A stretch of DNA of 64,000 nt. Source: Paludibacter sp. GTDB taxonomy: Bacteria > Bacteroidota > Bacteroidia > Bacteroidales > Paludibacteraceae. Shown here one piece after another: positions 6,836 to 32,037 of this stretch; the first letter of the stretch is position 1; each line of letters opens with the position of its first letter. The translations under genes were made by a program, and so were the position numbers. Where the stretch lies: assembly GCA_028692715.1 (NCBI GenBank), contig JAQUWU010000001.1, forward strand, positions 1 through 64,000, given 5' to 3'. The notes under the pieces were generated by a model, which had not been told where the DNA came from, made no database searches, and saw only the letters and a list, made by a program, of their open reading frames with translations.

Positions 6836-8452
6836 TTATTTAATTTCCTGAATTCTTAAAGCCATATATGCTTTTTCAGGAAGTCTAATTTTCTGGAAAT
6901 CTTTATCATACAATCTATAATCGTTTGGTTTCGCAGTTTCAAAAACGCCCGGATAAGGCGTGATAGTCATGTCCCAGGTATCAATGATATCCACTTTATA
7001 TTTCTTGCCGGGTGATAAATTTTCGGTATACGAAACTTTTCTTGGTAAATTAAACAACCATGAGTCATGAATTTCCTTTCCAAAATAAATGAGATAGTAA
7101 CCTTTTCCATTTGTAGATGTGTAGTTATCTCTACTTACATCTGCCAATTCAATTGGACCTGGTGCAGTCTCTAAAATAGAACGTAGAAATGCCACACGTT
7201 TCCAGCTTTCACCTTTGAATTTACCTCCTTTTGCCCAAAAAATAGTATCTGTTGCATCTTTAAACATGTAAGCTTCACCATGAGTAACATACGTTCCAGC
7301 AATTACACCCTGCCAGATGACATGGGTCATTTCTTCGGGACTATACCTGCCCCAACGACTTGTAAGATTACCTTCGTAACATACTTCGTCGAATACAATA
7401 GGCTTGTCGAATGCATTTCTTAGTATCGCCGCACGACCAAAATCAGCCACCGGACCCTCGTCTTGTATGCTTAAATGAGTAAACCATTTTTCCCAGTATT
7501 TGTAATACTTTGCTGTGCTTCCGTGAATAGAACATAAATGACGATAAGAATCGTTTTCGTAAACTGTTTTGGATAATAATTCCCAATCAGCATCTGTTTT
7601 GGCTTTTACATAGTCATATTCATTAGCCATAGACCACCACACATTTCGGAATGAGCCAAGACGTGCAATTATGTATTTGATATAACGGATATTTACTTCG
7701 CTTGGCATCGAATCAAATCCCCAGCGACCTTTATCATATGGGTGGAAAAGTATCAAATCGGCTTCTATACCCAATTTATCTAACTCATCAATTCTTTTCT
7801 CCAAATGTTGAAAAAAGGCGGGATTAAATTTGTCAAAATTCCACACATATTTTTTATTCCCTTTTGAGTCTTTGGCAAGCTCCTTTAATTCAAAAGGATA
7901 TATTTCGGGTTCTTCTTTTACCAGATTATAGTCTTTAGGAAAAACACACATTCTCACTTTATTGAATCCGGATTTTTTAAGCGAATTCAAAGTCATTTCC
8001 TGTAGTTCATTTCCCATGTGCGTCCAAGCATAAGCTGTGGTGCCAAATGGATAATATTGTGTACCATCAGCGTATTTAAAATTGTGGGTGTCACTTACTT
8101 TTACAAATCCATGATTAGTTCCAGTGGCTCTAACACATTCAAATGTTCCTTTTTTATTGTTTAGTTGAGCAATATTACTTTTGGTTTTATATTTCCAAGC
8201 TCCGGTAGTTGGAGGCATAAAACGAATTTTAAAGTTATTATCTCCATCATAAAAACCCGAAACATTAAACGTAGTATCTTTTCCAACAAAGGTTGCAGTT
8301 AACTTTACATCTTCAAAAGCATTTTTCTTGCACTGAGAGCTAAAGGATATTTCGAATCGACCCCATTGCTCCACATTTTGTTGGGAGAATACAATGTTTG
8401 TGTATGCAAAAATAAGTAACAGTGAAACTAAAATTTGTTGTGTGATTTTCAT
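6836..8452 (-). CDS. GH140-like glycoside hydrolase (DUF5060 + DUF4038), apiosidase-like
   Basis: Secreted protein of 538 residues with a signal peptide ending about residue 24 (VFSQ). An N-terminal DUF5060 beta-sandwich (about 28-105, starting VEQWGRFEISF) is followed by a DUF4038-type TIM barrel (about 115-450). Candidate catalytic acids are the Glu in WSMANEYDYV (acid/base) and in VFDEVCYEGN (nucleophile). A small C-terminal beta domain follows. Characterised members with DUF4038 barrels include GH140 endo-apiosidases acting on rhamnogalacturonan II. Membership of this exact family, and apiose as substrate, are inferences; related DUF5060 proteins have other roles. It lacks a T9SS tail and sits alone between a repeat and a 410-base gap. 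The putative apiose operon 17-25 kb away makes the assignment attractive. Confidence 0.72.
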   Translation of the reverse strand: MKITQQILVSLLLIFAYTNIVFSQQNVEQWGRFEISFSSQCKKNAFEDVKLTATFVGKDTTFNVSGFYDGDNNFKIRFMPPTTGAWKYKTKSNIAQLNNKKGTFECVRATGTNHGFVKVSDTHNFKYADGTQYYPFGTTAYAWTHMGNELQEMTLNSLKKSGFNKVRMCVFPKDYNLVKEEPEIYPFELKELAKDSKGNKKYVWNFDKFNPAFFQHLEKRIDELDKLGIEADLILFHPYDKGRWGFDSMPSEVNIRYIKYIIARLGSFRNVWWSMANEYDYVKAKTDADWELLSKTVYENDSYRHLCSIHGSTAKYYKYWEKWFTHLSIQDEGPVADFGRAAILRNAFDKPIVFDEVCYEGNLTSRWGRYSPEEMTHVIWQGVIAGTYVTHGEAYMFKDATDTIFWAKGGKFKGESWKRVAFLRSILETAPGPIELADVSRDNYTSTNGKGYYLIYFGKEIHDSWLFNLPRKVSYTENLSPGKKYKVDIIDTWDMTITPYPGVFETAKPNDYRLYDKDFQKIRLPEKAYMALRIQEIK

Positions 8453-10473: not shown

Positions 10474-12804
10474 TCAATCAACGACATTAAGTTCCACTGA
10501 TTTCAAATCGACAGAGCTTTTACCAACATATATTGTGAATTTGCCAGGCTCAACTACTTCGTGCATGTTTCTGTCAAAAAACTTTAACTTGTCGGGGGTA
10601 ATTTGAAACGCAACAGTTTTCGATTCTCTTTTTTTCAGGAATATCTTTTCGAAGCCTTTTAATTCAAGTAACGGGCGGGTTACAGAACTTACATTATCTC
10701 TAATATACATTTGAACTACTTCCTTACCATCGTAATCGCCGGTGTTGGTAACTTTCACTTTTACAATGGTACTGCCATCCTTCTTTATTTCATTTGTATC
10801 GATAGTCAAATCAGAATATTCGAAGTTTGTGTAGCTTAATCCTAATCCGAAGGGAAACAATGCCTCGTTTTTTTCTAAAACATACCTAAGTACTAGTGCT
10901 GAAGCCTTTTTGTTATAATAAGAAGGAATATGTCCAACCGAGCGTGGAAACGAAATGGACAATCTGCCGGAAGGATTTACCTTACCAAATAAAATGTTGG
11001 CAACTGCATTTCCGGTTTCTTCGCCTTCGTACCAGCCTTCGATAATAGCTGGAGCCTGATCCATGATCTTTACGATACTGATAGGTCGACCATTCATCAG
11101 ATAAACTATGGTTGGTTTGCCGAGTTTCAAAATTTCATCTACCAACAGTTGCTGACGGCCAAATAAATTCAAATCGTCTCTGTCGCCGATGCGGGTTTGG
11201 TTGTTTTCGCGGCAAATGCGGGGTGTCTCGCCAATTACCAGTACAACAACATCAGTAGTTTTTGCCACTTCAACAGCTTCCTTGATAAGTTGCAGGTCAG
11301 ACTCTTCTGAGTTTAACACAGCCTCAGGGCTGCGCCAGTATCCGTCGCCCAAATGGATTTTACAGCCTTCAGCATATTTTACTTCCGCTTTTGAACCAAC
11401 ATAATTGTTAATCCCATCGAACACAGTAACTCCTCTATCGGCACTATACAAAGTGGTGTATCCGCCCATATAAGCATGCTTGGCATTTGGCCCAATTACT
11501 GCAATAGACTTAACTTTGTTTAGGTCGATGGGCAGGGTTTTGTTGTCGTTTTTGAGTAATACAATTGATTCCTCAGCGGCTTTTAACGCCAGCGCTTTAT
11601 GCTCGGGACTATGATTCACCTTTTTGGCATATTCAGCATCGGCAAAGCGGTCTTCGAACAAGCCTAAGCGGAATTTGAGGGTAAGAATACTACGAAGCGA
11701 ACGGTCGATATATTTCACATCCAACTTTCGAGTTTCTACTAGTTTTTTTAGGTTTTTAAATGCCTTAATTCCGGGGAGTTCAACATCCATACCGGCTTCT
11801 ATCGACATTTTTGCAGCTTCATCTATGGTCTCAGCTTCGAAATTAAGGTCAACAATTCGCTCTATGCCTCCATAATCGGACACAACAATACCTTTAAATC
11901 CCCATTCGTTTCTAAGTAAATTAGTTAGCAACCAAGAATTTGCATGGCACGAAACACCATCGTATTCAACATAGCCAGCCATAATGGAGGCAGCGTTTGC
12001 TTCTATAATAGCAGCACGAAACGGAACAAGATCTGCTTCGCGCATGGTGCGTTCATTCATGTAGTTAGGAGCCAAATTAAGGCCTCCAAAAGGTTGAGCT
12101 GAAGCTCCAAAATGTTTTACGGTTGCACCTATGTGGTCTTTCCCGATAAGGTAATCTTTGCCCTGAAAACCATTAACAGCAGCAATAGCGTATTGTGAGG
12201 TCAGGTAAGGGTCTTCGCCATAAGTTTCTTCGGTTCGTCCGTAGCGTGGGTCTTTGGCTAAATCGAGGTTCGGCGATAAGGATAAATTTGAACCACGGCT
12301 TCGCGTTTCTTTTGCAATTGCAGCCGAAACCTCTTCAACCAATGTCGGATTCCATGAGCTTCCCATAGCAATGGCCTGCGGAAAAACAGTTGCTCCGGAC
12401 ATCATAACGCCATGCAATGTTTCTTCGTGGACAATGGCAGGAATACCAAGTCGTGTTTTTTCGAGTAGGTATTTTTGAATCGTGTTAATTCTTTCAACAG
12501 TCTGTTCAGGGAATAAAGTTTCTCCCGAACGACTCAGTTGTCCAATACCGTTTTTAATATCAGCAGTGGACTTTTCGGGTAATTCTTCATTCAGTGCACC
12601 CATTTGGATATTGCCAAACGAACACATTTGAGCAATTTTCTCGTCGAGCGTCATTTGACTCATAAGGTTTTTAACCCGGTCTTCAATCTTAGCTTTTGGA
12701 TTCTCGTAAATATCCATTTTACCATTTTTATTGGCATCAATGAATTGCGCAAATAAACTTGGAGTTAAAAGTAAAAACGAGCAGAATAATAATTTAATCT
12801 TCAT
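10474..12804 (-). CDS. GH3 beta-glycosidase (beta-glucosidase/beta-xylosidase type)
   Basis: Glycoside hydrolase family 3 enzyme of 776 residues, normal for the three-domain form. The signal peptide ends near residue 19 (SLFAQ), so it is probably periplasmic, and there is no T9SS tail. The N-terminal TIM barrel contains GIPAIVHEETLHG and RYGRTEETYGEDP, and the nucleophile Asp lies in GIVVSDYGGIERI (about residue 300). The alpha/beta sandwich domain begins near 400 with ESIVLLKNDNKTLPI, and a C-terminal FN3-like domain covers about 670-770. It releases non-reducing-end sugars from oligosaccharides; the sugar (glucose, xylose or another) cannot be read from the sequence. It is the last gene of an operon behind two DUF1593 genes (23-base gap) and is followed by a strong terminator. 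Confidence 0.92.
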   Translation of the reverse strand: MKIKLLFCSFLLLTPSLFAQFIDANKNGKMDIYENPKAKIEDRVKNLMSQMTLDEKIAQMCSFGNIQMGALNEELPEKSTADIKNGIGQLSRSGETLFPEQTVERINTIQKYLLEKTRLGIPAIVHEETLHGVMMSGATVFPQAIAMGSSWNPTLVEEVSAAIAKETRSRGSNLSLSPNLDLAKDPRYGRTEETYGEDPYLTSQYAIAAVNGFQGKDYLIGKDHIGATVKHFGASAQPFGGLNLAPNYMNERTMREADLVPFRAAIIEANAASIMAGYVEYDGVSCHANSWLLTNLLRNEWGFKGIVVSDYGGIERIVDLNFEAETIDEAAKMSIEAGMDVELPGIKAFKNLKKLVETRKLDVKYIDRSLRSILTLKFRLGLFEDRFADAEYAKKVNHSPEHKALALKAAEESIVLLKNDNKTLPIDLNKVKSIAVIGPNAKHAYMGGYTTLYSADRGVTVFDGINNYVGSKAEVKYAEGCKIHLGDGYWRSPEAVLNSEESDLQLIKEAVEVAKTTDVVVLVIGETPRICRENNQTRIGDRDDLNLFGRQQLLVDEILKLGKPTIVYLMNGRPISIVKIMDQAPAIIEGWYEGEETGNAVANILFGKVNPSGRLSISFPRSVGHIPSYYNKKASALVLRYVLEKNEALFPFGLGLSYTNFEYSDLTIDTNEIKKDGSTIVKVKVTNTGDYDGKEVVQMYIRDNVSSVTRPLLELKGFEKIFLKKRESKTVAFQITPDKLKFFDRNMHEVVEPGKFTIYVGKSSVDLKSVELNVVD

Positions 12805-12827: not shown

Positions 12828-14489
12828 CTAATTTTTAATAATTTTCTTCGAGACAACTTTGCCGAAATTATTATTTACCGCAACAAGATAAATACCAGCC
12901 GGCAAGTTTCTAATTTCAAATACATTTTCGGCATTGCTAAGCTTCTGTTTCAATACAATTTTACCGTAAACATCATACATCCTTACAATTGAATTGTCTA
13001 AATAACTTGCACTTACAACAATTCTCAGTTGATCAGTTACCGGATTAGGAATAAATAAATCGCAGTACTCATTGTCATTCAGACTAGCAGTTTCATTTGT
13101 TATATTGAAAACTATTCGTTGATATCTTGTGAGCACAGGAGTTCCATTATCGGTAACTTCGAGTATCACATGGAGTTGCTTGCCCAATTCATTGGGGACT
13201 ACAAACGATGCATTGTCAACAGATGTACTGTTATTAATCATTAGTTTTGTCGTAGCATTATCAGCCTCGAAATATTGCCACCACTTATACGACAAAGTAT
13301 TTCCATCCGGATCGCTCGATTCTGATGCATCCAGAGTAACAGTTTGCCCGGGCATTACTTTACACAAAACATCTCCTTTCACTTTTGCAATTGGCTGATG
13401 ATTGGCACCATCGTAAGTTGAAGCTACACACCAATCGGCACGCGATGCCCAATCATTTTGAACTGCACAAAGCCAGCGATGAAATGTGCGATGCATACTA
13501 GCTACACCGAGACTATCATCTGCACCATCCACCAAATGATTTTCGCCTACAGTTTCATATACCGGACGACCACCCCAACCACCTATTGTGTAATCGGTAT
13601 CTTGCTGAAGTCCGTTATCAATTAATGGCATAAACGAAGGGGAATCACCTTCGCTGGTATAGGATTGTGAATAAGCAGCTCCCAACTCACCATGATTGGT
13701 TTTAATATTAGTAGTCATCCATTGAGTATCCATAAGCACCTGAATATCTTTAGGATTAGAACTCATTACATTATTTTTTTTCAAATCGACACTATAATAA
13801 TCCCAAACGTAGCGCCAACTACCGTTTCGCAAAGGATAACCAGCTTGATAAATTTTCACTTCCGGGATATTATCCTGAATCCATTGTCCACCTGTATCCT
13901 GATACCAAATGCAGTAAAGTCGGGCTTTTGATACTGCATAATCATACTGCGCTTTTGTATAAGAAGTTTTTAATTTATAAAATGCATAAGCTGTAGTTAT
14001 AGATCCACCCCAATGAAGGATATGAACTGGTCGTAGGTCACTATCGAGTAATGCATCAATAATTAGTTGTGAGCCTGGAGTATCTTTCGTACTCATATTT
14101 GGGGGCGTTTTTGTCAAATCGTTTTTATTTTCGTTTCCAACAACTACCACACTTTTCAAATAAGCAGCTTCAGGATAATCCGGTTTATGTATTTTCAAAT
14201 TTGGCAATACAGTAGCATACTTATCAATATCGGCTTCAATCCACTCTTCAGCACTGTGTCCATTAGGTTGAGCATTCGAGGCTACTTGTACTATGCCAAT
14301 TATATCATAATCAGATGCATACATTAGAAATCGAACCATTGAACTTTTATCGTCCAGTTCGCCGTCTGTTGTAGCAATTACACGAGGTTTTACTCTTTCT
14401 GGAGTATTTGCTATTACCGAAAATTTGATAGTTAGAAGTAATATTGCAAACAACGCAAAATTCGTTCTTTTAAAAAAAAATTTAATCAC
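12828..14489 (-). CDS. DUF1593 nucleoside-hydrolase-like protein with T9SS tail
   Basis: Secreted protein of 553 residues of the DUF1593 family (one member has been called a cellulose-binding protein, Sde182). The signal peptide ends near residue 27. The N-terminal 300 residues have an inosine-uridine nucleoside-hydrolase-like fold, with the Asp cluster ATTDGELDDKSSMVRF near residue 40 resembling that family's calcium site. A second, Ig/PKD-like domain follows (LDASESSDPDGNTLSYKWW, about 380-470), then a complete T9SS sorting domain ending AVNNNFGKVVSKKIIKN. It is the tandem paralogue of the next gene. Outer-surface location plus a possible hydrolase fold suggest action on a glycan, but no substrate is established. 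Confidence 0.82.
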   Translation of the reverse strand: MIKFFFKRTNFALFAILLLTIKFSVIANTPERVKPRVIATTDGELDDKSSMVRFLMYASDYDIIGIVQVASNAQPNGHSAEEWIEADIDKYATVLPNLKIHKPDYPEAAYLKSVVVVGNENKNDLTKTPPNMSTKDTPGSQLIIDALLDSDLRPVHILHWGGSITTAYAFYKLKTSYTKAQYDYAVSKARLYCIWYQDTGGQWIQDNIPEVKIYQAGYPLRNGSWRYVWDYYSVDLKKNNVMSSNPKDIQVLMDTQWMTTNIKTNHGELGAAYSQSYTSEGDSPSFMPLIDNGLQQDTDYTIGGWGGRPVYETVGENHLVDGADDSLGVASMHRTFHRWLCAVQNDWASRADWCVASTYDGANHQPIAKVKGDVLCKVMPGQTVTLDASESSDPDGNTLSYKWWQYFEADNATTKLMINNSTSVDNASFVVPNELGKQLHVILEVTDNGTPVLTRYQRIVFNITNETASLNDNEYCDLFIPNPVTDQLRIVVSASYLDNSIVRMYDVYGKIVLKQKLSNAENVFEIRNLPAGIYLVAVNNNFGKVVSKKIIKN

Positions 14490-14498
14490 GACTTCCTG

Positions 14499-16211
14499 TT
14501 AAATAAAATAAATCAGTTTTGCTATTTTTTTACAATTTTCTTTGTTACCCCCCCCCGAAAAAATATTATTTATTGTAATAAAATAAATACCCTTCGGAAT
14601 GCTTCTTAGGTTCATCACGTTTTCACGCTCTGTAAGTTTTTGATTCAGAATCATCACACCCTGACAATCATATAAACACATATTACAATCAATTGATGAA
14701 TAATTATTTATCGAAATTTTCAATTCATCAATTACAGGGTTTGGATAAATGCTGACATCCGTACTTGCATAGACAGGTAAACCTGCAACTTCATTGCTAA
14801 TATTGAATATTATTCGTTGATATCTTGTAAGAACCGGAATCCCATTATCGGTAACTTCGAGCATTACATGTAGTTGTTTGTTAAGTTCATCAGGAACTAC
14901 AAACGATGCATTATCCATCGAAGTATTGTTGTTGATTGTAAGTTTTGTTGTTGCATTATCAACTTCGAAGTATTGCCACCATTTATATGACAGGGTATTT
15001 CCATCAGGGTCATTGGACTCAGAAGCATCCAAAGTAACTGTTTGCCCGGGGTTGACATTGCGAACTAAATCTCCTTTTACTTTAGCAACAGGTTGATGAT
15101 TTGCTTTGGAATAGTCATCTGCTACACACCAATCGGCACGAGCTGCCCAATCGTTTTGTACTGCCGGAAGCCAACGATAAAATGTATAATGATAATCTGT
15201 TTTACCGGCATTATCGTCACCACCATCCACAAAAATATTCGCTAAGCCAGAAAAAGAGATTGGTCTTCCACCCCAACCACCTAAGGTATAATCGGCATCC
15301 TGCTGCAATCCATTATCGACAAGCGGCATAAATGAAGGTGAATCACCTTCGCTTGTATATTCCTGCGAATAGGCTGCAGCAAGTGGCCCATGACCAACTT
15401 TTATATTATCAGCCAACCAGGGTTTATCCATGATTGTTTGAATTGTTTTGGGATTTTGACTCAATCGATTTTTCCAATAATAATCAACACTCATGTAATC
15501 CCAAACATACCGCCAACTATCATCATTATTTTTATAAGTTGAACTATTTACATCTACGGTTACACAGGATGCATACATTTTTATTTCCGGAAGATTTTTT
15601 TGAATCCATAAACCTCCACCATCCTGATACCATATACAATAAAGTCTTGCCTTTGCAGCTGCTGCCGGCCATTTATCGGGATACTTCGTTTTTATTTGCC
15701 ATAAAGCATTAGCCTGTGTATTGGCACCACCCCACGAAAGAATATGAACCGGACGAGGATCATCATCTGTTAGTAATTTTATTATAAGTTGCGCTCCTTC
15801 ATTATCTGCAATCAAAGGGGGCGCTTTACCCAAATCAGCACTGTTTTCGTTACCTACTTTCAGCACGCTTAATAGATAATCTTTGCTGGGATAATCGGGA
15901 TTATGGATTCTCAAATTCGGAAGACATTGGTCGTACTTATCAATTAATGCCTCAATCCATTTTTCACTACTGTGGCCGCTTTTCTGAACACCATTTACCT
16001 GAACAATACCCACGATGTCATAGTCGGATGCATACATCAGAAAACGAACCATCGAACTTCTGTCATCAAGTTCCCCATCGGTTGTAGCAATTACTCGCGG
16101 TTTTAGTCTGGTTGGAGTTGTCGCAAATGTGTCTATATTGCCAATCAACAAGACTCCACACAAAGCAAAATATATACCTTGACTTAAAATTCGTTTATAT
16201 GTAATTTTCAT
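14499..16211 (-). CDS. DUF1593 protein, tandem paralogue, sorting-domain end frameshifted at a G9 run
   Basis: Predicted at 570 residues and closely similar to the neighbour at 12828, with the same order: signal peptide (to about residue 31), nucleoside-hydrolase-like domain with ATTDGELDDRSSMVRF, Ig/PKD-like domain, T9SS sorting domain. The final residues are odd: after YFITINNIFS the frame reads GGGNKENCKK and on to IYFI. The coding strand has nine G at 14548-14556. With eight G the frame would read NNIFSGGVTKKIVKK and stop at TAG 14522-14524, matching the paralogue's ending. So either the run is phase-variable or one base is an error. The gap to the next gene is 9 bases as read (32 if corrected). 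It probably shares a transcript with the aldo/keto reductase 108 bases upstream. Confidence 0.82.
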   Translation of the reverse strand: MKITYKRILSQGIYFALCGVLLIGNIDTFATTPTRLKPRVIATTDGELDDRSSMVRFLMYASDYDIVGIVQVNGVQKSGHSSEKWIEALIDKYDQCLPNLRIHNPDYPSKDYLLSVLKVGNENSADLGKAPPLIADNEGAQLIIKLLTDDDPRPVHILSWGGANTQANALWQIKTKYPDKWPAAAAKARLYCIWYQDGGGLWIQKNLPEIKMYASCVTVDVNSSTYKNNDDSWRYVWDYMSVDYYWKNRLSQNPKTIQTIMDKPWLADNIKVGHGPLAAAYSQEYTSEGDSPSFMPLVDNGLQQDADYTLGGWGGRPISFSGLANIFVDGGDDNAGKTDYHYTFYRWLPAVQNDWAARADWCVADDYSKANHQPVAKVKGDLVRNVNPGQTVTLDASESNDPDGNTLSYKWWQYFEVDNATTKLTINNNTSMDNASFVVPDELNKQLHVMLEVTDNGIPVLTRYQRIIFNISNEVAGLPVYASTDVSIYPNPVIDELKISINNYSSIDCNMCLYDCQGVMILNQKLTERENVMNLRSIPKGIYFITINNIFSGGGNKENCKKIAKLIYFI

Positions 16212-25371: not shown

Positions 25372-26376
25372 TTACACTTTTGACAAGGTGATTACAACCA
25401 AACCCATAATAAAGAGAGCAAACATAGCAGTAAGCAATTTGTTTGTACCTTTAGGCGCACCTTTAAATTCCTTCCAGACAAAAACGCCCCAAAACATTGC
25501 CACGACAGGTGCTCCATTCGTTAATGCATATGAAATAGTTGGTCCTGCTTTTGGTATTGCCATAAAACTAATAACCATTCCAGTCATCCAGATAACACCA
25601 CCAAAAACTCCAATTATGTGAGTTTTAAAATCACCGGAAGCATAATCCTTCATAGTTAATTTTTCACCCTGAAGGGGATGACGCATTACAAAATAATTAA
25701 AAATTGGAGTGCTTAGTACCGCTCCAACAGTAAAGAAAAAGACTCCTGTAAATGGAGTAAGATTACCTGTACCACCACCAACATAGGCAGGGTCAAGCGA
25801 TTTTACTACTAGACCATAGAAAAATGCAATGGTAACACCAGCTAGCAATGAAACAATCAAACCTTTTGAAGTGGTTCCTTCTTTTGTTCCGGCTAATTTT
25901 TTATAAGCCAACATACAGAAATAAATGGCTCCAACAATAAGAGCTACACCTGTAAATAATACTGGTACATTATTGCCCTGAGGACCGGCAATAATAAAAT
26001 TAACAACAATACCAAGCACCCATGCTAAACCTCCACCAATGGGGAATCCAACAGACATACCTGCTATAGCCATTGCTGCAACCAATAATAATGTTCCTAA
26101 ATTCCAGACAATACCACCGGCAATTGCCCACATAATACTTGTAGAATTAGCTTGAGCTAAATCTTCTAAAAATCCCCGACCATCAGTACCAAAACTACCT
26201 AATGTAAAAGCAGCTACAATAGCTGTGATTAAAAGTCCCCATACAAAATCAAAATAAAAAAGTTCAAAGCGCCAGTTTTTTTCAATCATTTTTTGGGCGT
26301 TCGACCATGAACCCCAACATATCATACTAAATATTAGAAAGATGATAGCAGGAAGGTAACTTTGTATCAGTGTCAT
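25372..26376 (-). CDS. GRP-family (DMT superfamily) sugar permease
   Basis: Inner-membrane protein of 334 residues with about ten predicted transmembrane segments (for example residues 8-22, 45-63, 82-103, 104-128, 140-158, 172-192, 205-230, 255-278, 285-300, 313-332). The sequence pattern (SMICWGSWSNAQKM, GGIVWNLGTLLLVAAMAIAGMS cut into separate helices) matches the glucose/ribose porter group of the drug/metabolite superfamily, which moves sugars with protons. It is the last gene of the sugar-catabolic operon, 96 bases after the isomerase with a hairpin between. The likely cargo is the pentose used by the four enzymes; apiose is an inference. Confidence 0.78.
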   Translation of the reverse strand: MTLIQSYLPAIIFLIFSMICWGSWSNAQKMIEKNWRFELFYFDFVWGLLITAIVAAFTLGSFGTDGRGFLEDLAQANSTSIMWAIAGGIVWNLGTLLLVAAMAIAGMSVGFPIGGGLAWVLGIVVNFIIAGPQGNNVPVLFTGVALIVGAIYFCMLAYKKLAGTKEGTTSKGLIVSLLAGVTIAFFYGLVVKSLDPAYVGGGTGNLTPFTGVFFFTVGAVLSTPIFNYFVMRHPLQGEKLTMKDYASGDFKTHIIGVFGGVIWMTGMVISFMAIPKAGPTISYALTNGAPVVAMFWGVFVWKEFKGAPKGTNKLLTAMFALFIMGLVVITLSKV

Positions 26377-26427
26377 AAAATTGATTTTAAAGTGTGTATT
26401 AGATTGTGATAAAAATATAGAATAAAA

Positions 26428-26461
26428 GCCTTAAACCTTCCTTTAGGGAAAGATTTAAGGC
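26428..26461 (-). terminator. Hairpin between isomerase and permease genes
   Basis: Outer stem GCCTTAAA / TTTAAGGC with additional pairing CCTTCC / GGGAAA inside, just past the isomerase stop at 26473. A T-containing tract follows on the minus strand. It could terminate part of the transcription and so lower permease expression. Confidence 0.55.
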
Positions 26462-26472
26462 AATATAAATGA

Positions 26473-27891
26473 TTATTTGTGGTGGTATAAATTCCAACCA
26501 AGGTATGTTTCAATTGATTCTTCAATAACTTCAGCAACACTGTCACGTACCAAAGCAACGTGATGTTCGAATCCGTTTTTGCATATGTATTTCATTAAAT
26601 TCTGTAGATCATCAACTTCAGTCACAGCTATACAGCCATCCATTCCATAAGGGTCGTTGGTGATTTTGCCTTGACCAAGATAAGACTTAATGATTCCCAA
26701 ATTATCGTCAGTAGAAATGCGGAAATAAGTGAATGGTCCTTCGGATACTTTGCTAAGAACAGCTCCGACAGTTTTCACACGTCCCAACACGTTTCCTAAA
26801 ACCCCAAGCGAACCAACTTCCATCGGAGCTTTTACAAAACCTTTTGCAAAGTTACCGCAATGAGTACAAACACATTTGTTTCTATTTTCGGCAAAGTTAT
26901 TGTTCCAATCAGCTAATACAGGAGGAGTTCCTGCTGCCTGCATAAGAGTATACATAGAAACAGCACCTGCAATATCTGCTTCACAAGCACTTGGGAACAA
27001 GCGATCGCTCATCATACTCATAGTCAAACAAGGAGCGCAACCATAGTTTTTCTCCAATGAATCCCAGCATTGAATTGCCGAAGCATCTACTTCATTTTCT
27101 AAGATCCACTCGTCAACAGCCTGTCCAAATTGAGCCTGAATAATCAGTTTATCTTGCAAGGCTTTAGGGACACTGGCATAAGCTTTCATTTGCTTGATAC
27201 GGGTTTTAATAGCCGCAGCATCTTTATCAATCTTAGTAGCTGCAGCAAGAATTTCGGACAAATCGACAGGTATAACTGTGATACCAGTGTTTTGAAGTAT
27301 TTTTTCGCTGGCACGACAAGTTTGAAAACCGATTGGACGGCAACCGATGACACCAACGCGAGCTTTTCTTAAACTGTTTACAACACGGCAAACGCGTCCA
27401 AATTTATCAAGATCTTTTTTGAATGCTTCGCTGTGAATAGAATAAGTATGTAAAGAAGTATTTGTAAACGGAATCTTATACTGATAAAGGTTGTTACATA
27501 CCGACAGTTTACCACAAAAAGCATCACGACGTTTGTCAAGAGATACTTTATCGTTTTCGTCATCGCAAGCCTGAACAAGTACAGGGACATTTAGTTCGGC
27601 TAAACTGATTGAATTAACGATACCCACTTCATACCCAAAGTTTGGCAATGAAACGATGATACCATCAATTTTATCACGGTTAGCACGAAAAAGAGCAGCA
27701 CATTTTTTCGCATCATCGTAGGTTTCAATACTACCTGTTGGAGTTTCGGATGGGTCAAGAATTACATAATCATGCCCTTGTGCCGATACTTCCTTAAGTA
27801 CTGTTGTACGAACGTCTTCGGCCAATGCTGAATTGAAATAAGCCCGGGTACCAATAATGATACCAAAGGTAAGTTTTTGTTTGTAAGCCAT
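26473..27891 (-). CDS. L-fucose/L-arabinose isomerase-family protein (candidate D-apiose isomerase)
   Basis: Cytoplasmic ketol-isomerase-like protein of 472 residues, shorter than fucose isomerase (about 590) and nearer arabinose isomerase (about 500). The N-terminal Rossmann-like domain contains the substrate-region motif SLPNFGYEVGIVNS (residues about 82-95). The C-terminal half has WDSLEKNYGCAPCLTMS and ACEADIAGAVSMYTLMQ, including the acidic residues expected to bind the metal. The adjacent kinase and split transketolase imply an aldose-to-ketose step. By analogy with the known D-apiose route it would make D-apulose; arabinose, fucose or another pentose are alternatives. It is the third gene of the operon, 49 bases from the kinase. 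Confidence 0.8.
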   Translation of the reverse strand: MAYKQKLTFGIIIGTRAYFNSALAEDVRTTVLKEVSAQGHDYVILDPSETPTGSIETYDDAKKCAALFRANRDKIDGIIVSLPNFGYEVGIVNSISLAELNVPVLVQACDDENDKVSLDKRRDAFCGKLSVCNNLYQYKIPFTNTSLHTYSIHSEAFKKDLDKFGRVCRVVNSLRKARVGVIGCRPIGFQTCRASEKILQNTGITVIPVDLSEILAAATKIDKDAAAIKTRIKQMKAYASVPKALQDKLIIQAQFGQAVDEWILENEVDASAIQCWDSLEKNYGCAPCLTMSMMSDRLFPSACEADIAGAVSMYTLMQAAGTPPVLADWNNNFAENRNKCVCTHCGNFAKGFVKAPMEVGSLGVLGNVLGRVKTVGAVLSKVSEGPFTYFRISTDDNLGIIKSYLGQGKITNDPYGMDGCIAVTEVDDLQNLMKYICKNGFEHHVALVRDSVAEVIEESIETYLGWNLYHHK

Positions 27892-27940
27892 ATTAATTTA
27901 ATTTTTGGTATTAGTTATTTTATTTATTTGTGTATTTCTT

Positions 27941-29419
27941 TTATTTCATCAAAGCTCTTTTAACTGCTATTTGCCAGTTTTTATAGAGGGATTTTACTTT
28001 TTCAATATTCATTTTCGGAAAAATATATTCGTTGTTTGTGCGAAGAGCATTTGCATCCGAAAAATCGCTAAAACAACCCAAAGCAAAACAGTTCAATAAA
28101 TATGCGCCCAAAGCAGAAGCTTCTTCAATAGGGCAACGATTAATTTTTGCTTGCAACATATCCGACTGGAATTGCATTAAAAAATTATTTTTAGTTGGTC
28201 CACCATCTACTCGTAATCCTATAAGCTCCACCCCTGAATTCTGAATCAATTCAATCAAATCCTTCACCTGATAAGCAATTGATTCAAGTGCGGCACGTAC
28301 GACATGAGCTTTGTTACTTCCACGATTCATACCACAAATCAATGCTTTAGCATCATTATCCCACCATGGAGCTCCCAAACCTGCAAATGCTGGAACGAAA
28401 TATACGCCATCAGTACTTTGAACAGATGTAGCCAACGCTTCGGTTTCTGAAGCCGATTGAATTAACTTCAAATCATCTTGCAGCCATTTAATAGTCGCTC
28501 CGGTACAATGTATATTTCCTTCGAATGCATAAAACACTTTCCCATTTCCGGCAAATCCGATCGAGGTGACCAAGCCAGAAGGAGCTGGTAATGCTTTTTC
28601 ACCAATATTCACCATTATAGACGAACCAGTACCGTAGGTTGCCTTTCCCATGCCTGAAGAAAAACACATTTGTCCCACCAAGGCAGCGTGAGAATCGCCC
28701 AATACACCAGCAATTGGGATTTCTGGTAATAATCCGTTTAATGTTGTACTTCCATATTTTGCATCACAGGTTAATGCTTTTGGTAACATCGATACGGGAA
28801 TAGTGAAAAGTTCCAATAAATCTTTATCCCAATCTAAGGTGTGAATATTGAATAGAAGCGTACGTGAAGCATTGGTATAATCAGTAGCATGAACCTTTCC
28901 GTTTGTCAATTTCCAAATCAACCAACTATCCATTGTTCCTAACAAAAGATGTCCATCTTCAGCTTCCTTACGAGCACCTGAAACATTATCGAGAATCCAT
29001 TTTACTCCACTTGCTGAGAAATAAGGATTGATAATAAGACCAGTTTTCTCAGTCACTTTTGGTTCGTGACCTTGTGCAATAAGATCCTCGCAAATTTGAG
29101 TACCACGATTACATTGCCAAACAACAGCATTGTAAACAGGATTGCCCGATCTTTTATCCCATACAACAACGGTTTCACGTTGATTTGTAATAGCTACCGA
29201 TGAAATATCATTTTTATTGATATTGGCTTGTGAAATCAATTGTTCTACAGCTTTATATGTGTTTTCAATAATTTCAATCGGATTGTGCTCCACCCAACCT
29301 GGTTTTGGATAAAATTGTTGATGATCAACCGAAACTTTGGCAGTTAAAGTTGCTTTCTCATCAAAAAGCATAGCTTTTGTAGCGGATGTACTTTGATCAA
29401 TAGTCAGTGTGTATTTCAT
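27941..29419 (-). CDS. FGGY-family carbohydrate kinase (glycerol-kinase-like; candidate apulose kinase)
   Basis: Cytoplasmic sugar kinase of 492 residues, full length for the FGGY family. The N-terminal phosphate-binding segment is LTIDQSTSATKAMLF. The inter-domain signature region has GDSHAALVGQ and ATYGTGSSIMVN. The C-terminal FGGY domain has ALESIAYQVKDLIEL and LRVDGGPTKNNFLMQF. It resembles glycerol kinases most, but the isomerase and transketolase neighbours point to a ketopentose substrate, giving a 4- or 5-phosphate. It is second-to-third in the operon, with a 64-base gap to the transketolase C-terminal gene. Confidence 0.88.
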   Translation of the reverse strand: MKYTLTIDQSTSATKAMLFDEKATLTAKVSVDHQQFYPKPGWVEHNPIEIIENTYKAVEQLISQANINKNDISSVAITNQRETVVVWDKRSGNPVYNAVVWQCNRGTQICEDLIAQGHEPKVTEKTGLIINPYFSASGVKWILDNVSGARKEAEDGHLLLGTMDSWLIWKLTNGKVHATDYTNASRTLLFNIHTLDWDKDLLELFTIPVSMLPKALTCDAKYGSTTLNGLLPEIPIAGVLGDSHAALVGQMCFSSGMGKATYGTGSSIMVNIGEKALPAPSGLVTSIGFAGNGKVFYAFEGNIHCTGATIKWLQDDLKLIQSASETEALATSVQSTDGVYFVPAFAGLGAPWWDNDAKALICGMNRGSNKAHVVRAALESIAYQVKDLIELIQNSGVELIGLRVDGGPTKNNFLMQFQSDMLQAKINRCPIEEASALGAYLLNCFALGCFSDFSDANALRTNNEYIFPKMNIEKVKSLYKNWQIAVKRALMK

Positions 29420-29483
29420 GTGCAGTATTAGAGTTTTAAATATTATAAACTGTAAAAATAGAATAATATTTTTAGCTTTGCAA

Positions 29484-30440
29484 TTATTTTTCTTTTGACG
29501 ATTGTGAGTTCATGAAAGAATTTGCAGTTTTAAAAATTCCATCAGCATCAATACCATAATATTTGAATATCTCTACTGATGAAGCATGTATTGCATTCTC
29601 ATCTGGTATTCCTAGAATACGCATAGGTACCGGGATGCTTTGTGAAACGACCTCAGCAACTGCACCACCCAAGCCTCCGCTTACACTATGTTCTTCAACA
29701 GTAATGATTCGTCCGGTTTCTCTTGCCGCTTTTTCAACTATTTCCTTATCGAAAGGTTTCAAAGTATGCATATCAATTACACGTGCTTTTATACCTAATG
29801 CATGGAGCTGTTTTCCGGCTTGTAAACAATGGTAAACAGTTTCACCACAACCAATAATTGTCAAATCATCGCCTTCGAGCAAAGTATTTGCTTTTCCTAT
29901 TTCGAATTTAACATTTTCGTTTTCGTAAACATTTTCAACAGCATTTCTCCCAACACGAACATATACAGGATAAGGATAATCAACCAATGCTTCAACCAAC
30001 TTTTTTGTTTGAAAAATATCGCATGGCAGCACGATGTGCATTCCAGGAAAAGTACGCAAAGTAGCAATATCGTGTAAACTGTGATGAGAAAACCCTAAAG
30101 CTCCGTAGCTTACACCTCCACTTACCCCTAATATCTTTACAGGATTTGCCGAATAAGCAACATCCACTTTAACTTGTTCCAAACTACGAGCAACATAAAA
30201 ACACGCAGGTCCGCAAACAAATGCTTTTTTACCGACCGAAGTTAGTCCAGCAGCAACACCTACAGCATTTTGTTCTGCAATACCTAATTCCACAAATTGC
30301 TCAGGGAGTTCGTTTGCAAACTTATCCAGTGTAACAGATCCACGCGCATCGGTTGTAACAGCTACTATCTCTTTGTCTTGTTTTGCCAGTTCAACCAATG
30401 TATCGGTAAACATTTTACGGCAGGGTATTGTATTTGTCAT
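29484..30440 (-). CDS. Split transketolase, C-terminal subunit
   Basis: 318-residue protein equal to the pyrimidine-binding and C-terminal domains of transketolase. Visible motifs are VTTDARGSV, ELGIAEQNAVGVAAGL with the catalytic Glu that activates the thiamine diphosphate, FSHHSLHDIATLR, and the C-terminal domain segment VEEHSVSGGLGGAVAE. It must pair with the N-terminal subunit encoded one base upstream. Split transketolases of this type include the apulose-4-phosphate transketolase (EC 2.2.1.13), which yields xylulose 5-phosphate and dihydroxyacetone phosphate. Homologues in other pathways exist, so the substrate is inferred from the operon. Confidence 0.88.
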   Translation of the reverse strand: MTNTIPCRKMFTDTLVELAKQDKEIVAVTTDARGSVTLDKFANELPEQFVELGIAEQNAVGVAAGLTSVGKKAFVCGPACFYVARSLEQVKVDVAYSANPVKILGVSGGVSYGALGFSHHSLHDIATLRTFPGMHIVLPCDIFQTKKLVEALVDYPYPVYVRVGRNAVENVYENENVKFEIGKANTLLEGDDLTIIGCGETVYHCLQAGKQLHALGIKARVIDMHTLKPFDKEIVEKAARETGRIITVEEHSVSGGLGGAVAEVVSQSIPVPMRILGIPDENAIHASSVEIFKYYGIDADGIFKTANSFMNSQSSKEK

Positions 30441-30441
30441 T

Positions 30442-31278
30442 TTATATAGATATTTTTTCTATTCTTTTATTAATTTCAATAATTGCATCTTTGTATTGTT
30501 GCTCCTGCGGAGCTCCATGATGCCATTTGGCACCACCTTCCATAAACGAAATTCCGTTCCCTTTTGTAGTATGCGAAATTAATAGTTTTGGTTTTGAGTT
30601 TGAATAATCAATGTTATCAAATGTTTTGCAAATATCTTCCATATCATTACCTTTCACATCAATCACTTCCCAACCGAAAGCTTCCCAACGAGCCCTTAAA
30701 GGTTCTAATGCCATTATCGTTTCAGTCTTGCCACTAATTTGCAACGTGTTACGATCTATCATAGCCACTAAATTATCTAGTTTATAATGACTTGCCGACA
30801 TGGCCGCCTCATAAATAGAACCTTCACCTTGCTCACCATCACCCATTAAAACATAGGTTTTAAAATTCTTTTTGGACATTTTAGCTCCAATAGACATCCC
30901 AACTCCAACAGATAAACCATGTCCCAAAGCTCCACTATTTAATTCAACTCCCGGAGTTTTCTTCGTTGGATGTCCCGCAAGTAATGAATTAAATTGACCA
31001 TAGGTATCAACAAGCTTTGATGAAATAAATCCTTTTGCCTCGAGAACAGCATAAAGAGCTTCAACACTATGCCCTTTACTTAATATGAATCGATCCCTAT
31101 CTGGCATTTTTGGATTTTTAGGATCAATATTCATGACATGAAAATAGAGTGCAGTTTCAATTTCAATTGATGAAAGTGAACCACCCATGTGACCGCCTCT
31201 AGCTAAGAATATCATTTTTATAACATTTTTTCTTATGTCTTCGGCTTGTAGTTGCAACTTTTTTATTTCCTTTTGCAT
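30442..31278 (-). CDS. Split transketolase, N-terminal (TPP-binding) subunit
   Basis: About 278 residues, the pyrophosphate-binding half of transketolase. It carries SKGHSVEALYAVL with the substrate-binding His, the TPP motif GDGEQGEGSIYEAAMSA followed by the closing Asn in MIDRN, and GHGLSVGVGMS. The start is placed at 31278 (MQKEIKKLQLQ) because an ATG further upstream (31353) lies above the -7 promoter box at 31319-31326 and would add an unrelated Cys/Phe-rich peptide. First gene of the operon; its stop and the next start are separated by one base. Confidence 0.9.
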   Translation of the reverse strand: MQKEIKKLQLQAEDIRKNVIKMIFLARGGHMGGSLSSIEIETALYFHVMNIDPKNPKMPDRDRFILSKGHSVEALYAVLEAKGFISSKLVDTYGQFNSLLAGHPTKKTPGVELNSGALGHGLSVGVGMSIGAKMSKKNFKTYVLMGDGEQGEGSIYEAAMSASHYKLDNLVAMIDRNTLQISGKTETIMALEPLRARWEAFGWEVIDVKGNDMEDICKTFDNIDYSNSKPKLLISHTTKGNGISFMEGGAKWHHGAPQEQQYKDAIIEINKRIEKISI

Positions 31279-31318
31279 TGTTTTTTTTGCTTTAATGTGT
31301 TTCGTATTATTTCGCATA

Positions 31319-31349
31319 CAAATATAAAAGCAATTAAACGAAATACAAA
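31319..31349 (-). promoter_or_regulatory. Promoter of the transketolase/kinase/isomerase/permease operon
   Basis: On the minus strand TTTG (31346-31349), 19 bases, TATATTTG (31319-31326): an exact match to the Bacteroidota housekeeping consensus. Transcription would start about 30 bases before the 31278 start codon. Confidence 0.65.
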
Positions 31350-32037
31350 ACAAAAATATAAAAATAATCTAAATTCAATGCATTTTTAACACACAAAAAA
31401 TTATAGAACACAAACATCAGCGTTACACAAGTACAATCAACTCAACAATTTAAGATTGAGACCACTATGAAAAAGAGGAGAACGTAAATTTATAAATGCG
31501 TATATATCTGTATAATATATAAACTCATTTTGATGTAGATTTGCGCTTTTAGCGCATTCCGTAAGTCCGGGACGTCCAAATACTCCGTTTGCGCCTGTCT
31601 GCCATCAGGCAAATTCAAAAACGGCTTTTCTGAGAACACTCAATTATTAACTATTAAAATAAAATCTACAAATTGAAGAAATTGTATCCATTGTACTTAT
31701 AATCAATACTTCGTTTCAAAATTTTTAATATGGCAGAATTACAATAATGTGAATATATGATATCGATTTACAATATCTTTTGTGTTACATTACTCACACA
31801 AAAGTGGAATATCCTACACAACAATCTAATAGTCAGGGCAAATAAAATTTTATGCAAAAAAAAACACTGATTTATAGGTAGAGAAAACTTTGAAGTTTTC
31901 TTGGTGACTCCCGTTTTACGGGACAAGTGTGGTGTCATTAGGCCTACCTACCGAAGGTAGTTGAAAATGAATAGTTTATATCGAAATATTGTAATTAATA
32001 GGAGACAAATAATGTCTAAAATTCAATAAAAAATAGT
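31350..32037. other. Intergenic region with repeats, no gene seen
   Basis: About 690 bases between the sugar operon promoter and the end of the TolC gene. It contains a short GCGCCTGTCTGCCATCAGGC palindrome (31591-31612) and dispersed repeat copy C. No open frame looks coding, and no regulator gene is present for the operon. Confidence 0.55.
31861..31995. repeat. Dispersed repeat, copy C
   Basis: Diverged copy of the repeats at 6636 and 17464: GAAGTTTTCTTGGTGACT, then palindrome GCCTACCTACCGAAGGTAG (31942-31960), then TATATCGAAATATTGTAATT. An inserted CCCGTTTTACGGG hairpin is specific to this copy. Confidence 0.55.

Follow-up and report, generated by a model that had tools for sequence, protein, structure and literature searches.

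A Putative D-Apiose Catabolic Operon with a Fucose Isomerase-Family Enzyme in a Genome of Paludibacter sp.

Introduction

D-Apiose is a rare branched sugar of plants, which bacteria can degrade by successive isomerase, kinase and transketolase reactions. This D-apiose transketolase pathway, with the isomerase ApsI, the kinase AplK and the transketolase AptA/AptB, was reportedly described by Carter et al. in 2018. The present report concerns an operon in a stretch of 64,000 nucleotides (the window) from Paludibacter sp., phylum Bacteroidota (assembly GCA_028692715.1, contig JAQUWU010000001.1, positions 1 to 64,000). The operon is probably a D-apiose catabolic cassette of the apulose-4-phosphate transketolase route, in which an enzyme of the AraA/FucI superfamily would serve as D-apiose isomerase.

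Escherichia coli SE15 (ST131) carries an apiose cluster (PMC13001218) that contains two oxidoreductases of the short-chain dehydrogenase/reductase (SDR) type and no isomerase. In PMC13001218, growth on D-apiose is reported for the tested strains with an SE15-type cluster, one of E. fergusonii and three of E. coli, and the SDR oxidoreductases are proposed as a replacement of ApsI.

On the minus strand of the window, genes for transketolase N and C subunits, an FGGY kinase, an isomerase and a permease follow one another in this order, as judged from open reading frames (ORFs) and Pfam and NCBIfam domains. The genes, their order, their domains and the single base (30441) between the two transketolase genes are as given in the preliminary description of this DNA. 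The two-subunit transketolase, with separate N and C subunits side by side as in AptA/AptB, the FGGY kinase and an aldose isomerase are common to the window and the known pathway, whereas the window has an AraA/FucI-superfamily enzyme in place of the TIM-barrel isomerase and a GRP permease in place of the ATP-binding cassette (ABC) transporter. The assignment is based on gene content, conservation, interchange of isomerase types, and co-occurrence and synteny with loci of the glycoside hydrolase (GH) family GH140 type; the substrate, each reaction and the uptake are predicted from sequence. A fucose/arabinose-isomerase-type enzyme in the known pathway is provisionally regarded as new: in the literature searched, which did not include the study of Carter et al., no paper joins 'apiose' and 'fucose isomerase' and none indicates such an enzyme.

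Comparison with enterobacterial apiose clusters

The isomerase of the window matched 13 plasmid records. Three of them, from Klebsiella pneumoniae, Sodalis praecaptivus and Rahnella aquatilis, contain consecutive genes for transketolase N, transketolase C, isomerase and FGGY kinase; a sugar-binding regulator and an ABC transporter of the ribose type are encoded nearby. Identities between the window and these cassettes are 45-46% for the isomerase, 39-41% for the kinase, 44-45% for the N subunit and 33-34% for the C subunit. The N, C, kinase and regulator proteins of the E. coli SE15 cluster are 70-79% identical to those of the three cassettes, and since the isomerase gene is present in the latter, a fucose-isomerase-family gene evidently sits in an otherwise apiose-type cluster. 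The transketolase and kinase of the window, for which the preliminary description had proposed a comparison with the apt enzymes, show 44% (AptA), 33% (AptB) and 39% (AplK) identity to the SE15 homologues; the window differs from the SE15 cluster by having the isomerase in place of the SDR pair. The binding protein of the Klebsiella cluster is 44% identical to that of SE15, and its best matches in the Protein Data Bank (PDB) are 5ibq (E 3e-134) and 4ry0 (E 8e-134). Entry 5ibq is presumably a complex with alpha-D-apiose. The Klebsiella record (CP110761.1, L002) is a linear 'plasmid' of 11.6 kb with little besides the apt cluster and may be a chromosomal fragment.

Exchange of the isomerase

A scan with AptB patterns gave 68 loci, and with four named loci 72 were classified, including the four query loci. 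A fucose-isomerase-family gene was present in 45, the SDR pair in 20, neither in seven and both in none; the patterns were derived from an alignment of three isomerase-type rows and one SDR-type row, and these numbers are not a census. One of the seven loci with neither type (L052) is cut by a contig end, and two others (L029 and L061) were left out of the ApsI test described below. In locus L125 the kinase gene is adjoined by a TIM-barrel gene (PF01261) whose product matches, with E 1e-198, PDB entry 3ktc, the Pectobacterium atrosepticum protein known as ApsI. The eight cluster genes common to L125 and L122 are 59-88% identical, and only the isomerase differs.

Genome-wide searches at E 1e-60 in 26 genomes with AptAB found the fucose-isomerase type in nine, the ApsI type in six and both in none; ApsI was thus absent from all nine genomes with the fucose-isomerase type. 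In four genomes whose cluster holds neither isomerase nor SDR genes (G062-G065), the ApsI type was expected beforehand to be encoded elsewhere, and it was found in all four; these genomes were chosen for the lack of a cluster isomerase, and p-values for exclusivity in the 26 genomes are therefore not clean. Where the cluster has no SDR genes (13 genomes), one of the two isomerase types is always present and never both; in the remaining 13 the stretch read holds one SDR gene or more, in some cases with just one of the two lying in, or called in, that stretch. Exceptions are G060, with SDR genes and ApsI, and G141, with SDR genes in the cluster and a fucose-isomerase-type gene elsewhere. Several of the 26 genomes are from the same organisms as loci among the 72, and one genome with a partial match (G093) was left out.

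The fucose-isomerase, SDR and TIM-barrel types are interleaved in the AptB tree. The pattern is one of non-orthologous gene displacement, and the case for a shared role of the isomerases rests chiefly on it. The isomerase of the window is read as a non-orthologous replacement of the TIM-barrel isomerase of other clusters. It is tentatively suggested, with slightly less than even confidence, that D-apiose isomerization has been solved several times, namely by ApsI, by the SDR pair and by two independently recruited AraA/FucI branches (the Bacteroidota/Enterobacterales group with the window, and a pair from Listeria and Monoglobus at 24-25% identity), so that the enzymes of the first step would be interchangeable in three or more phyla.

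A triose-phosphate isomerase gene stands beside the apt clusters of two rhizobia (L179, 1-540; L148, 9456-10208), which fits dihydroxyacetone phosphate as a product. The Rhizobium sp. TH2 apt cluster is flanked by an annotated ribB gene (L178, 1-274), where S. meliloti has tpiA.

Cassettes in Bacteroidota and Firmicutes

Within the genus of the window, the order transketolase N, transketolase C, kinase and isomerase is kept in five loci (L133, L135, L136, L137 and L138), and because the transketolase-kinase-isomerase order is conserved in relatives, the gene set of the window is not a chance assembly. A sixth locus (L134, genome G031) has an ORF judged by eye to be transposase-like between kinase and isomerase (10671-11570), and in genome G029 two contig ends (L139, L140) each carry a part of the isomerase gene. 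The ORF caller used on the relatives misses genes in GC-rich loci. In five of the genus relatives a gene for RibB is located near the cassette (L133, 6631-7251; L134, 800-1447; L135, 7323-7943; L137, 15841-16461; L138, 8464-9087); the L133 copy was identified by Pfam (PF00926) and the other four by resemblance.

Cassettes from other families of the phylum (L162-L164) contain genes for isomerase, N subunit, C subunit, binding protein, DUF2291-type protein, ATPase, permease and kinase. These are the genes of the enterobacterial clusters, accompanied by a DeoR-type regulator (DUF2291 and DeoR were checked with Pfam on L163). A further locus (L161) is cut after the N subunit. The Listeria and Monoglobus records have genes for isomerase, N subunit, C subunit and a GlpK-like kinase; their isomerases are 71% identical to each other and, by BLAST, 26-27% identical to that of the window. 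The Listeria cassette is followed by a phosphotransferase system gene and then by a PF13204 gene (E 4e-93), and the Monoglobus cassette directly by a DUF5060-Apiosidase-DUF5605 gene, 46% identical to the gene at 6836 of the window.

The transketolase N subunit of the window is 48.5% and the C subunit 52.6% identical to the Listeria counterparts. In the tree, the C subunit groups with transketolases of the isomerase cassettes of Firmicutes and Bacteroidota; this tree has no generic split transketolase in it, and the program warned of long branches.

Association with apiose-releasing enzymes

The strong PF13204 genes examined in the genus have a GGD motif and a Collagen_bind_2 domain. The gene at 6836 shares PF13204 with GH140 apiosidases (60.8 bits) but differs in its DUF5060/DUF5605 architecture, in having NE in place of the GGD motif and in lacking Collagen_bind_2, and was rejected as a typical GH140 gene. 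It is a divergent relative of GH140, for which a role as partner of the cassette is possible. The preliminary description joined this gene and the operon in a single route from release to catabolism; this link is only partly supported, by the homologue next to the Monoglobus cassette. On contig C94 of the same genome (L177, 5028-11908), three further genes of the DUF5060 type, related to the one at 6836, alternate with two that resemble binding-protein genes.

Strong PF13204 genes of the window's genome (G000) lie on two other contigs. The gene on C45 has PF13204 and Collagen_bind_2, and the same architecture is deduced for the gene on C54 from 83.6% identity to a gene of L136. The genome thus does have a conventional GH140-type gene, located outside the contig of the window. 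In genome G032 the cassette, together with a DeoR-like gene, is part of a pectin locus with GH28 and GH78 genes, where it has a DUF3826 gene on one side and a GH95-GH140 pair on the other. Contig C54 has a syntenic locus without the cassette and with a gene resembling that of BT_1020, a rhamnogalacturonan II enzyme; five genes of the two loci are 75-89% identical and a sixth 68%.

Among 36 genomes of the genus, including that of the window, eight have the isomerase, ten have a PF13204 match above 350 bits and seven have both. Strong PF13204 matches occur in 7/8 genomes with the isomerase and in 3/28 others (Fisher p 1e-4; 6/7 versus 3/28 and p 3e-4 when the window's own genome is excluded), the line of 350 bits having been drawn after the gap in the scores was seen. 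With any PF13204 match over the Pfam cut-off the numbers are 7/8 and 8/28 (p 0.005; 0.010 with the own genome excluded). GH28, taken as control, gave a weaker association (p 0.05), and the association of strong PF13204 persists within GH28-positive genomes (p 0.004) and when the test is restricted to genomes of 3 Mb or more (p 0.001). G034, which has an isomerase match of 35% identity in a different context, was scored as lacking the isomerase, and the presence/absence lists for the association tests were compiled by hand. In a sample of 295 other genomes of the phylum, PF13204 was matched at E 1e-40 in 5/12 genomes with the isomerase and 25/283 others (p 0.004); the isomerase stands in an apt context in four genomes of this sample, three of which have PF13204 at this threshold.

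Properties of the enzymes and alternative assignments

The isomerase belongs to the L-fucose isomerase family, as originally described, by its Fucose_iso_C domain (PF02952) and by Foldseek matches to AraA and FucI. Its structural model (mean predicted local distance difference test score 75) resembles L-arabinose isomerases with template modeling (TM) scores of 0.65-0.76 and L-fucose isomerases with 0.65-0.70, so that fold and domain together place the predicted protein in the AraA/FucI superfamily. However, BLAST gave no significant match to E. coli FucI, and a sequence search of the PDB gave no useful match to a solved chain. Residues E304, D328, H344 and H443/H444 are candidate metal ligands conserved in 30/30 aligned isomerases; they may correspond to the metal-binding Glu, Asp/Glu, His and His of AraA. 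The enzyme was rejected as an ApsI, given PF02952 and a fold other than the TIM barrel of PF01261. No ApsI-type match at E 1e-15 was found in the window's genome, and the same search of 35 Bacteroidota genomes gave three weak matches (E 1e-16 to 1e-18).

Several observations weigh against the assignment of the operon to apiose. One of the eight isomerase genomes of the genus (G026) has no PF13204 match, three of the 28 genomes without the isomerase have a strong one, and 25 of the 30 Bacteroidota with a strong PF13204 match (own genome excluded) lack the isomerase. As ApsI matches are also few and weak, these 25 genomes either make no use of apiose or degrade it by other means. Eight further Bacteroidota genomes encode isomerases 43-47% identical to that of the window in loci other than apt clusters; Pfam identified an Aldolase_II gene in L166 and an FGGY kinase of another kind in L168, and the remaining loci were judged by eye. 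Three further isomerases, 34-36% identical, lie beside another FGGY-type kinase, and in one of these loci (L141) an adjoining class II aldolase gene was confirmed by Pfam. In view of these relatives the family probably acts on other sugars besides apiose. In a tree whose outgroup, E. coli FucI, is too distant for safe rooting, the isomerases linked to apt genes in Bacteroidota and Enterobacterales cluster together with weak support (81/68).

The isomerase and kinase of the window might likewise have a different pentose or hexose as substrate, for example L-arabinose or D-arabinose, with the split transketolase feeding the pentose phosphate pathway. The relatives outside apt contexts agree with this, as do the best Foldseek matches, which are L-arabinose isomerases with TM scores mostly about 0.75. 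It is nevertheless considered unlikely, as the operon has no aldolase- or epimerase-type gene, the GlpK-type kinase has the residues of apt-cluster kinases, in AptAB clusters the SDR pair or the TIM-barrel enzyme can take the place of this isomerase, and GH140-type genes are associated with it.

The kinase and the transketolase C subunit supply further points of this kind. The kinase exceeds both NCBIfam cut-offs for glycerol kinase (equivalog 606 versus 590 bits) and, in GlpK numbering, retains the GlpK residues R83, E84, W103, Y135 and D245. The position of Y135 is occupied by L in SE15 and Klebsiella, and by L or M in the majority of the other proteobacterial kinases shown. An ordinary glycerol kinase, in a glycerol/pentose shunt unrelated to apiose, is nonetheless very improbable: Q246-Q247 and F270 of GlpK are replaced by S-H and S (E. 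coli GlpK being the sole GlpK in the alignment), and a glycerol kinase has no need of an aldose isomerase. The S-H/S pattern (GDSH, TGxS) is common to the other 14 apt-type kinases displayed of 28 aligned, with S-E at the first site in Listeria. The best solved match of the transketolase C subunit is a generic split transketolase of Carboxydothermus, and the subunit is no closer than this to E. coli AptB (33%).

The sole NCBIfam match of the isomerase is the sulfoquinovose isomerase SftI, and split transketolases also occur in the sulfo-transketolase pathway, which might place the operon in sulfoquinovose degradation. This route was rejected on the SftI score (122 bits, cut-off 700) and is scarcely credible; the sulfo-transketolase pathway is not known to need a kinase, and no GH31-type sulfoquinovosidase was found among the 21 of 37 window ORFs of at least 150 amino acids that were scanned with Pfam. 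The D-apiose route accordingly stays the preferred assignment.

Transcription, uptake and neighboring genes

Coordinates of the features are compiled in Table 1. The consensus promoter of the preliminary description was recovered as a match to the Bacteroidota-type consensus; the match is weak taken alone, since the pattern occurs 12 times on both strands of the whole window, and a scan for sigma-70-type promoters gave no excess over shuffles. For the transketolase N subunit the ATG at 31278 is the most likely start, the start at 31353 being a TTG extension. The five genes and their order stood, but a single five-gene transcript is less clear: because a terminator-like hairpin separates isomerase from permease, the transcription unit may consist of 4+1 genes, with the permease only partly co-transcribed.

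Table 1. Features of the operon and of the possible partner gene in the window
Feature	Position	Strand	Evidence
Bacteroidota-type promoter TTTG-19-TATATTTG 5' of operon	31319..31349	-	pattern match
AptA-like transketolase N, 278 aa from ATG	30442..31278	-	PF00456 E 1e-49
AptB-like transketolase C	29484..30440	-	PF02779/PF02780
Apulose-kinase-like FGGY kinase (GlpK-related)	27941..29419	-	domain matches, site residues
Candidate D-apiose isomerase, AraA/FucI superfamily	26473..27891	-	PF02952 (Fucose_iso_C), Foldseek, 45-46% to enterobacterial apt-cluster isomerases
Terminator-like hairpin, isomerase/permease gap	26428..26461	-	14 pairs, then TTTTATTCTA
GRP/RhaT-type sugar permease, likely apiose uptake	25372..26376	-	PF07168 1.7e-24, PF06800 7.9e-7
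DUF5060-Apiosidase-DUF5605 glycoside hydrolase, possible partner	6836..8452	-	Pfam; 46% over 522 aa to Monoglobus gene adjoining cassette

The permease exceeds the Pfam cut-offs for PF07168 and PF06800 and scores 34.5 bits against TIGR00776 (RhaT/GlcU subfamily), below the cut-off of 319.6. A permease of this type adjoins the cassette in L133-L135 and in L144, which is from another genus of the order. Locus L139 has instead a DUF2291 protein and an ABC transporter that is a homologue of the enterobacterial one, and SusC/D-like pairs are found near the cassette in L134 and L137. The permease is not a constant part of the cassette, and the uptake gene varies among relatives. A stand-alone Peripla_BP_4 protein is encoded near the cassette in L133-L135.

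Positions 66-23449 of the window encode pectin-related enzymes (pectinesterase, pectate lyase, GH88-type, GH3), and several proteins of this region carry type IX sorting tails. Two Sde182-like genes stand in tandem at 12828-16211. The genome is reported with 5.34% contamination.

Proposed pathway and significance

D-Apiose would be freed from pectin (rhamnogalacturonan II) by GH140-type apiosidases and would enter the cell by the RhaT-like permease. The AraA/FucI-superfamily isomerase is predicted to convert D-apiose to D-apulose and the GlpK-related kinase to form apulose 4-phosphate from it. The two-subunit transketolase would then transfer a two-carbon unit to glyceraldehyde 3-phosphate, yielding xylulose 5-phosphate and dihydroxyacetone phosphate. 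The apulose-4-phosphate transketolase route with a fucose-isomerase-family isomerase, as first proposed for this operon, is well supported by comparative genomics (cassette homology, isomerase interchange and PF13204 association).

If correct, this assignment would give a function to proteins annotated just as 'L-fucose/L-arabinose isomerase family protein', and it would show how an apiose cluster can work in bacteria that have no ApsI. It would link the degradation of rhamnogalacturonan II by Bacteroidota with an intracellular pathway for the branched sugar of this polymer, and would provide a genome marker for apiose use and a candidate enzyme for branched-sugar chemistry.

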